Source of the DNA: Achromobacter denitrificans NBRC 15125
GTDB lineage: Bacteria > Pseudomonadota > Gammaproteobacteria > Burkholderiales > Burkholderiaceae_B
DNA: 64,000 bases
NCBI RefSeq assembly: GCF_001571365.1
Contig: NZ_BCTQ01000033.1
Coordinates: forward strand, 1-64,000
Direction of reading: 5' to 3'
Shown: piece after piece, positions 30,473-37,972 of the stretch
Layout of the letters: every line of letters starts with the position of its first letter
How positions within the stretch are numbered: the first letter of the stretch is position 1
Made by a program: the position numbers and the translations under genes
The notes under the pieces: generated by a model
Databases searched by the model: none
Seen by the model: only the letters and a program-made list of their open reading frames with translations
Told to the model about the DNA's origin: nothing

Positions 30473-30548
<76 letters not shown>

Positions 30549-30588
30549 GTCCAAAGCGAAGAATGCAGTACCTGTTTTGCAGTTCCAG

Positions 30589-30664
30589 GTCCCCTTCGTC
30601 TAGAGGCCTAGGACATCACCCTTTCACGGTGAGTACAGGGGTTCGAATCCCCTAGGGGACGCCA
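30589..30664 (+). tRNA. tRNA-Glu (anticodon TTC), copy 1
   Basis: Acceptor GTCCCCT pairs with AGGGGAC; the anticodon loop CTTTCAC gives TTC; the T-loop has GTTCGAATC and CCA is encoded. It is identical to the copy at 31025-31100 and lies 40 bp after tRNA-Ala. Confidence 0.97.
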
Positions 30665-30734
30665 GTTCGCTGGCAGCAGTAAATGCAGTACCTAGATGCA
30701 GTTGAAGTGACCAAGTAGTTGAGTAAGCCGCTGC

Positions 30735-30811
30735 GGAGCGGTAGTTCAGTTGGTTAGAATACCGGCCTGTCACGCCGGGGGTCGCGGGTTCGAGCCCCGT
30801 CCGCTCCGCCA
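30735..30811 (+). tRNA. tRNA-Asp (anticodon GTC), copy 1
   Basis: Acceptor GGAGCGG pairs with CCGCTCC; anticodon stem CCGGC/GCCGG with loop CTGTCAC gives GTC; CCA is encoded. It is identical to the copy at 31170-31246. As a G34 tRNA it is a substrate for the queuosine enzymes QueA and Tgt encoded at 13.7-15.9 kb. Confidence 0.97.
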
Positions 30812-30837
30812 AAAGCTCTCGCTAGAGGTCTTTCAAG

Positions 30838-30859
30838 AGCTCCGTATTCGGGGCTTTTT
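30838..30859 (+). terminator. Weak terminator between the two tRNA triplets
   Basis: GCTCCG (30839-30844) pairs with CGGGGC (30849-30854), including a G-U pair, followed by five Ts. It lies 27 bp after the first tRNA-Asp. No clear promoter is visible between it and the second tRNA-Ala, so the second triplet probably depends on readthrough. Confidence 0.6.
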
Positions 30860-30912
30860 GCTTTTTAGGGTGTGAAGCCTGGTTGCCGGCAGTGTGGGCA
30901 ACGAGGATCCTG

Positions 30913-30988
<76 letters not shown>

Positions 30989-31024
30989 GTAAGCAGTACG
31001 GTAGTAAGATTGCTGTTCGTTCAG

Positions 31025-31100
31025 GTCCCCTTCGTCTAGAGGCCTAGGACATCACCCTTTCACGGTGAGTACAGGGGTTCGAATCCCCTAGGGGACGCCA
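31025..31100 (+). tRNA. tRNA-Glu (anticodon TTC), copy 2
   Basis: Same sequence as copy 1. The spacer before it (36 bp) differs from that of copy 1 except for short shared strings such as GCAGTAC. Confidence 0.97.
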
Positions 31101-31169
31101 GTTCGCTGGCATGTGGTACCCGCTGCCTTGACACCGCGGCGTATTGAAGACGTTGAAGCACACCGCTGC

Positions 31170-31246
31170 GGAGCGGTAGTTCAGTTGGTTAGAATACCGG
31201 CCTGTCACGCCGGGGGTCGCGGGTTCGAGCCCCGTCCGCTCCGCCA
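31170..31246 (+). tRNA. tRNA-Asp (anticodon GTC), copy 2
   Basis: Same sequence as copy 1. Only the bases next to the genes are conserved in the Glu-Asp spacers (GTTCGCTGGCA after Glu, CCGCTGC before Asp). It ends the cluster and is followed by an intrinsic terminator. Confidence 0.97.
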
Positions 31247-37264: not shown

Positions 37265-37536
37265 CTAGGGCCTGTTAACACTAAAAGGAGCCTCGCATGA
37301 GTACCCCAATGGGCGGTTATCAAGACGCGAAGCGCAGTCGTGGCGGAACCATGGCGAGCATTCGCAACGCAGAGAGGCGCCCATTGGGGTACTCACCCTT
37401 CGGGCAGGCTCATAATCGGGCGCCTGGCGTCGTTGCAGCCACTTTGCGTGGCACAGCCACGCGGCAGCGTCTGCGCCTAGCCAGGCGCCCGATTACGGGC
37501 CTGTGCGAGGCTCCTTTTAGTGTTAACAGGCCCTAG
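37265..37536. mobile_element. MITE-like element with 33-bp perfect terminal inverted repeats
   Basis: A 272-bp sequence bounded by two perfectly complementary 33-bp arms (37265-37297 and 37504-37536). Each outer end is CTAG, which could be a 4-bp palindromic target duplication, leaving 29-bp repeats beginning GGCCTGTTAACAC. Nested inside are two more inverted repeats: TGAGTACCCCAATGGG (37298-37313) with 37381-37396, and TAATCGGGCGCCTGGC (37414-37429) with 37481-37496. There is no transposase. Size, terminal repeats and lack of an enzyme gene fit a miniature inverted-repeat element moved in trans; an IS5-type parent is a guess from the CTAG ends. It ends 13 bp before the next gene. Confidence 0.75.
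37297..37536 (+). CDS. Possible 79-residue reading frame inside the MITE-like element
   Basis: The left terminal repeat contains AAGGAG six bases before the ATG at 37297, and the frame stays open until a TAG that is the last three bases of the right repeat. The product is Arg-rich (MSTPMGGYQDAKRSRGG at the start) with no recognised domain. The exact fit to the element is striking, but the nested inverted repeats constrain the sequence, and a chance frame in GC-rich DNA is quite possible. Confidence 0.25.
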   Translation: MSTPMGGYQDAKRSRGGTMASIRNAERRPLGYSPFGQAHNRAPGVVAATLRGTATRQRLRLARRPITGLCEAPFSVNRP

Positions 37537-37549
37537 CGGAGATCCACCG

Positions 37550-37972
37550 ATGCGCAAGATCTTGATCGGCCTGGCCTGGATGCTGGGCGCCACCTCCCCC
37601 GCCTGGGCGGCCCCGGACGCCAGCGAGCAGGTCCAGTACGACTCTTTCGTCATGGCCGCCGGCGCCTCCAACGGCGCCGCCCGCGCCTGCGGGGCTTCCG
37701 AACCCGACCTGGCCCAGCACCAGGCCACCTCCCGCAAGAATCTGCTCCAGTACGCCCAGGAATACGGATTTTCCCCGGCCGCCTATGACGCGCTGTTCCA
37801 GAAGGGGCAGGCGGAGGGGAAGGCCATGATGGACGAGATGAAGCGATCCGGCGTGGATGGGTGCCGGGGGGTGCTGGGCGGGTTTCAGAATGAGAGGGTG
37901 ATGGGGTATGAGGAAATGAAGGGGGCGTTGGCGGAGGTCAGCGATGGGTTGCCGGGGGAGAAGGCGCAGTAG
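37550..37972 (+). CDS. Small secreted hypothetical protein
   Basis: A 140-residue protein with a signal peptide (MRKILIGLAWMLGATSPAWA, cleavage probably after residue 20 or 21). The mature part is helical-looking with two Cys (RACGAS and DGCRGV) that could form a disulfide. I recognise no family. GGAG lies about eight bases before the ATG, only a few bases beyond the MITE-like element, so its native promoter may lie on the far side of the insertion. Codons in the last third (37850-37970) become G-rich with many GGG and GTG, unlike the C-rich third positions of neighbouring genes. Confidence 0.65.
   Translation: MRKILIGLAWMLGATSPAWAAPDASEQVQYDSFVMAAGASNGAARACGASEPDLAQHQATSRKNLLQYAQEYGFSPAAYDALFQKGQAEGKAMMDEMKRSGVDGCRGVLGGFQNERVMGYEEMKGALAEVSDGLPGEKAQ

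Follow-up and report, generated by a model that had tools for sequence, protein, structure and literature searches.

An apparently undescribed foldback repeat family in Achromobacter and related Alcaligenaceae

Described repeats and the architecture of the element

ERIC, NEMIS/Correia, RUP and BOX are palindromic intergenic elements of other hosts, and several of them insert at TA. The element that we describe here from Achromobacter denitrificans NBRC 15125 is palindromic as well; its hosts differ from theirs, and the comparison was made by description only. The four families are named in excerpts of the report on BRE, the Bordetella beta-proteobacterial repeat, which resembles our element as a dispersed chromosomal repeat of Alcaligenaceae with possible mobility (PMC3110155). 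In the same excerpts BRE measures about 90 bp, is often arranged in tandem and occurs also in Comamonadaceae, which sets our element apart from it by description alone (PMC3110155).

Similarities were also found to MITEs, which are non-autonomous IS derivatives. Like these, the element is short and multicopy, ends in inverted repeats, carries no transposase and is missing from empty sites in relatives. Unlike for MITEs, no matching IS was found among the transposase loci searched, nearly all bases of the arms and internal hairpins are paired, most of the full copies are equal in length across several genera and a 4-bp duplication was rejected. With REPINs, the REP doublets that depend on RAYT transposases, it shares two hairpins in inverted order within a larger hairpin as well as a non-autonomous spread, as far as the excerpted description goes (PMC3116915). 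However, it is much larger than REPINs, its ends are symmetric and 6 of the 10 genomes tried gave no match to the Y1 transposase. Instead of the GTAG tag at the hairpin foot the arms read CTAGGGCCTGTT, and GTAG occurs in 6 of 241 arms. The element behaves like a MITE or a REPIN, but neither its tag nor the distribution of Y1 among the genomes is that of a REPIN.

A description of the element was not found in the open-access papers searched, either by sequence strings or by subject, and the excerpted text of a MITE review mentions neither Bordetella nor Alcaligenaceae (PMC10969869). The family is apparently undescribed so far; this status is only apparent because tagless REP-like repeats have been reported for Bordetellae in a source available in excerpt (PMC3733652). 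An apparently undescribed repeat family is thereby added for Alcaligenaceae, a group with clinical members. Its signature is unusual, as arms that change in concert are combined with less variable hairpin tips in copies from several genera. Two questions are opened to testing, namely whether it is mutation through template switching or selection that maintains near-perfect palindromes, and by which enzyme the conserved tip is read.

The window, that is the whole stretch of 64,000 nucleotides analysed here (contig NZ_BCTQ01000033.1), carries the element at 37265-37536; all features below are given on the plus strand. The original prediction had described 33-bp perfect arms, and the left arm (37265-37297) and the right arm (37504-37536) of the basal stem are indeed exact complements. 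Extended outward by three bases, they reach 36 nt at 97% complementarity. CTAG stands at each end of the 272 bp as claimed, and the lack of a transposase inside was confirmed. On the reading that we favour, the first two bases of the left arm (CT) and the last two of the right arm (AG) are target sequence, which leaves a core of 268 nt, AGGGCC...GGCCCT (37267-37534). The ends of this core are exactly the junctions of the empty sites, and 51 of the 57 distinct copies of 267-269 nt are 268 nt long.

Between the arms lie hairpin A (37298-37395, with its stem at 37298-37315/37378-37395 and its tip at 37316-37377), the mini-hairpin CCCTTCGGG of 3 bp (37396-37404; seen in fold and alignment) and hairpin B (37405-37503, tip 37429-37479). 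The tip of hairpin B is inverted in three of 64 copies by eye, all three in other genomes. Two nested inverted repeats had been predicted at 16 bp each; both exist and both are slightly longer, with 18 nt at 100% (37298-37315/37378-37395) and 29 nt at 86% (37400-37428/37480-37508). Moreover, the heptamer GGGCCTG is directly repeated, with one copy at 37268-37274 and an inner copy bordering the right arm at 37497-37503.

The multi-hairpin folding foreseen for the element is also found in the predicted fold, in which the 33-bp basal stem carries hairpin A, the mini-hairpin and hairpin B. Folded as RNA, the 272 nt reach -197.9 kcal/mol compared with -106.4 +/- 5.1 for shuffled sequences (z -17.8), while the other strand reaches -190.4 kcal/mol (z -16.0) and the 268-nt core folded as DNA -114 (z -16.4). 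As 0 of 200 shuffles attained an equal energy, the folding of the element is not due to chance. When the consensus tip of hairpin A was aligned with tip B in reverse complement, 4,989 of 5,000 shuffles scored worse and 11 were as good. This alignment is suggestive, though not strong, evidence that both hairpins are inverted relatives and that the element consists of two related halves placed face to face.

The left neighbour of the element is a peroxiredoxin gene (Redoxin in Pfam) that is read divergently, and the other neighbour is a gene without a Pfam match and with a likely start codon at 37550. Elsewhere in the window (30473-31243), six tRNA genes form two triplets whose members match each other pair by pair in model score (62.9, 58 and 68.1 bits), which suggests a tandem duplication of a three-tRNA cluster.

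Copies, hosts and insertion sites

In its own genome (6.7 Mb, 97 contigs) the element gave 44 BLAST matches, among them a second full copy (C31:9525-9796, 96%), a 163-bp copy on C32 and many single arms. Among the loci of the same genome that were measured, ten are solos of 39 nt (L005, L008-L014, L023, L028), counted between the outer AG and CT or decayed forms of these. Matches were present in 16 of 41 compared genomes, its own included. The search for further copies that had been proposed for host and relatives thus revealed a dispersed multicopy family and not a single copy. With up to two mismatches allowed, the arm pattern matched 55 of the 268 genomes from the bacterial family and was represented in 10 of its 43 genera, while a reversed control pattern had 0 matches. 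A scan for the exact hairpin A tip returned 95 stretches from Achromobacter, Bordetella (ansorpii and genomosp. 13), Pigmentiphaga, Candidimonas, Alcaligenaceae bacterium CAII-53 and CAII-56 and the Burkholderiales MAG Prado178. In collections of plasmids, phages and viral contigs neither the element nor the hairpin A tip pattern had a match. Prado178 contributed 15 of the 95 stretches, and the element in most of these 15 is another one, which measures about 160 nt and forms a single hairpin (e.g. L329:6760-6925). It ends in AGAACCTGTGAAG...CTTCACAGGTTCT and is topped by a near-identical tip A, whereas its stems are otherwise different.

The full length predominates among the paired arms. In one locus collection, counted without single-arm solos, 38 of 51 distinct arm pairs span 272 bp end to end, and the remaining pairs span 48, 51, 110, 164, 172, 177 (two), 263, 264, 273 (two), 298 and 1,292 bp. 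The 298-bp pair is a copy beside a half-copy and the 1,292-bp pair consists of two neighbouring copies. At L178 (G048:C15:752400-754000) two full 272-bp copies lie about 1 kb apart with about 750 bp between them. Among the genes next to the copies, the two largest clusters comprise 18 and 16 loci and were judged ordinary by eye only.

One genome, G024, carries identical 268-nt copies at three loci, three further copies that differ by 1, 2 and 3 bases and a seventh that differs by 5, whereas a copy with flanks common to G019 differs by 23. Judged from these sequences, we regard this as a recent spread of the element in G024. At one locus G024 has the full 272 bp, whereas G019 has a form of roughly 145 bp with its join at GGCCTG, which we read as one case of a resident copy shortened in place by deletion at this motif. 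The 39-nt solo is the expected product if a full copy loses the segment from one GGGCCTG repeat to the other. Solo forms could also be mobile themselves, and the one solo common to orthologous loci of two species (L008, L409) is compatible with either reading.

Besides, related strains were searched for sites without the insert, and relatives lacking it at the same places were found. The site of the window copy is empty in L086 (G057), where it reads GGCATCTAGCGGAG. Clean empty sites were also obtained for L003, L053, L055, L063 and L067, and for L002 with a changed base at the junction, while the alignment for L010 reaches only five bases beyond the junction. Less clear sites with indels at or near the junction were found for L008, L011, L014, L023, L028, L048, L065, L116, L166, L167, L168, L172, L176 and L281.

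The element ends in AGGGCCTGT...ACAGGCCCT and inserts at CTAG-like sites, with 156 of 241 arms starting with CTAG and 35 with TTAG. The CTAG at both ends had been considered compatible with a 4-bp target duplication, which is contradicted by two loci and by unequal end pairs. At L055 the empty site of the relative reads TTAG and the occupied site TTAG...CTAG; at L053 the empty sites read TTAA, TTAG or TCAG and the occupied site TTAG...CTAA. Among 76 end pairs, 47 were other than CTAG/CTAG, and identical four-base ends occurred in 0 of these 47. IS5-type elements produce a 4-bp duplication of YTAR, and a direct repeat of this type was rejected for our element on the same observations.

Most sites are compatible with a duplication of TA, since CTA-GGG...CCC-TAG cannot be told from CT-AGGG...CCCT-AG by its letters. 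This, together with the preference for CTAG/YTAR targets, would suit an ordinary MITE of a DDE transposon that duplicates TA and whose autonomous partner was lost or resides in genomes outside the search. IS630/Tc1-like elements prefer CTAG, and autonomous partners are often lost. However, 36 of 241 arms have another base in place of the outer T but only 11 in place of the adjacent A, though both would belong to the duplication. Moreover, L281 (TG^A) and L167 (TA^CA) lack TA at the junction and their inserts still end in A...T; both sites carry small indels relative to the relatives. Since T and A are replaced unequally and these two junctions are not TA, the sequences lean towards insertion with no duplication rather than with a duplication of TA. 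As IS630-type transposases of the DDE_3 family (PF13358) were also found in 0 of 7 genomes tried, we consider the ordinary MITE an unlikely explanation. What stands of the predicted MITE-like character is a short, dispersed inverted repeat without transposase and with empty sites, whereas the 4-bp duplication was discarded and a matching IS was not found among the transposase loci inspected.

The search for a mobilising enzyme

The original prediction had further proposed to look for a full-length IS with matching ends, and among the loci inspected for three transposase families no transposase with paired arms was present. Besides DDE_3, this concerned DDE_Tnp_1 (PF01609), which is present in 3 of 7 genomes and for which the loci of 30 of 54 matches were inspected, none of them bounded by arms. 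The third family, Y1_Tnp (PF01797), was detected in 4 of 10 genomes tried, including that of the window, and not found in the other six (E 0.001). Ten Y1 loci yielded only three single matches to the arm motif, each with up to 4 mismatches. When arms in inverted orientation were paired over distances of up to 3,500 bp, the only pairs beyond 273 bp were those of 298 bp and 1,292 bp. A looser rescan of the named loci with 4 mismatches gave many arm pairs, which were judged to be chance. In G048, a genome of the genus (e.g. L138-L164), a transposase match of equal score was seen at 32 places, and the five copies compared end in GGAACCTCTGAA. This commonest IS of G048 was rejected as a partner; its copies hold one internal arm-motif match with 3 mismatches, which was taken as chance.

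We consider it fairly probable that the element is a mobile foldback element at the DNA level that has no transposase of its own, is moved in trans and decays by deletion between short direct repeats. A trans-acting enzyme would recognise the folded or inverted-repeat ends together with the hairpin tips and move the element, possibly as a single-stranded hairpin. Deletion between the GGGCCTG or GGCCTG direct repeats, of which the locus common to G024 and G019 provides one case, would reduce resident copies to solos of 39 nt and forms of 145 nt.

A more specific proposal, which we regard as improbable in its entirety, is that an undescribed recombinase uses the tips and the AG...CT ends as a code and inserts the element as folded single-stranded DNA, with CT^AG as target and no duplication. 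One arm would then be copied from the other at each move, and pairing would result from the life cycle and not from selection. The Prado178 element would be a second, single-hairpin user of the same type of enzyme.

Movement by a Y1 (HUH) REP-associated transposase that acts on single-stranded hairpins at CT would make the element REPIN-like. The paired inverted hairpins fit such a mechanism, as do the lack of a clear duplication and the position of CT, which immediately precedes the left end and is also present at the right end. According to excerpts of a study on TnpAREP, this enzyme cuts at CT beside the REP hairpin (PMC8266576). Nevertheless, the detection of Y1_Tnp in only 4 of the 10 genomes tried, the poor arm matches near Y1 loci, the missing GTAG tag, the symmetric ends and a length of 272 nt, far above REP size, make this origin very improbable.

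Concerted change of the arms and the open frame

We aligned 36 copies from several genera, all of 268 nt; 51 copies had been thinned at 8 differences to 37, the window copy was added and L223 and L273 were omitted for their inverted tip B, and the alignment is gap-free partly by choice. In this alignment 95.8% of the paired cells are standard pairs. Changes on both sides occur in 59 of 112 pairs, with 343 doubly changed cells compared with 76.5 +/- 6.7 in shuffles and 24-47 in slid structures. On an NJ tree, parsimony over 72 stem pairs counted 143 double changes from one Watson-Crick pair to another but 53 single changes away, of which 21 led to A.C, 19 to G.T and 13 to other mismatches. Another 16 events belong to neither class and are mostly reversions to standard pairs. 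Pairing was also recorded in 52 distinct 268-nt copies, whose 31-bp basal stem is perfect in 27, has one mismatch in 17 and two to four in 8.

Covariation of this strength would also be expected of a structured RNA, such as a regulatory leader, a terminator or a stability hairpin, under selection on the transcript. A selected RNA should tolerate G.U more than A.C. In the standing cells G.T indeed exceeds A.C: the 72 stem pairs hold 46 G.T and 30 A.C cells, and the full set of 112 pairs holds 180 and 44. The excess in the full set comes largely from a small number of fixed G.T positions in the tips (columns 48-113, 167-209 and 178-198 are, for example, mostly G.T across copies); the basal stem has 7 G.T and 12 A.C. 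The loop of the mini-hairpin (alignment columns 130-138) is mostly TNCG, as TTCG, TGCG, TACG or TCCG, and resembles the stable UNCG tetraloops of RNA, which suits an RNA and is odd beside a reading at the DNA level. However, the single-sided changes of the stems show no preference for G.T over A.C (19 to 21). Moreover, hairpin B is probably an inverted relative of hairpin A, so that the two are opposites on one strand, and copies lie on either contig strand at non-orthologous sites. No Rfam family was matched at gathering score, the best match below threshold having an E of 0.05. Strong compensatory change in an alignment is alone no proof of a functional RNA, and a selected transcript is in our opinion a very doubtful explanation here.

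The concerted change of the arms rather points to copying between them at the DNA level. Template switching between inverted repeats homogenises the arms and inverts the spacers (PMC8604942, PMC8794818), the first of these studies having been made in yeast. In the foldback element, template switching during replication or during a transposition that passes through a hairpin would let one arm rewrite the other, and sometimes flip a hairpin tip. Since template switching yields both arm homogenisation and spacer inversion, it may be mutation that preserves the pairing and selection that acts on the ends and tips. Selection on these parts is consistent with column identities of 0.85 in tip A, 0.81 in tip B, 0.92 in the mini-hairpin and 0.86 in the basal stem, compared with 0.73 in stem A and 0.76 in stem B.

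An open frame of 79 codons (37297-37536, plus strand) begins with an ATG after AAAAGGAG and stops with TAG at the junction of element and target. That this frame, with its Shine-Dalgarno-like AAAAGGAG, is a tiny gene for a basic protein helping the element is hardly credible: although its ATG is invariant, the frame is open in 35 of the 36 aligned copies, other frames usually contain stops and the synonymous share of changes (NJ tree, parsimony) is 0.345, above the 0.275 and 0.221 of the two remaining forward frames, the same share is 0.371 in a reverse frame full of stops, insertions break the frame in four CAII-56 copies (L222, L261, L268, L290), stops interrupt it in L265, L267 and L279, and four versions of its product had no match in Pfam, NCBIfam or PHROGs up to E 10. 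The frame is thus probably incidental and not a gene; its weak coding signal counts against a foldback element at the DNA level.

At another locus (L018:1501-1800; G000:C51, near 19012) a single left arm lies directly 5' of a frame with a lipoprotein-like start, MRKSLFTGRTTRLGGAILALAILAGC. There the arm provides AAAAGGAG and the ATG of the lipoprotein-like frame, and this supply of start signals is a possible case of exaptation.
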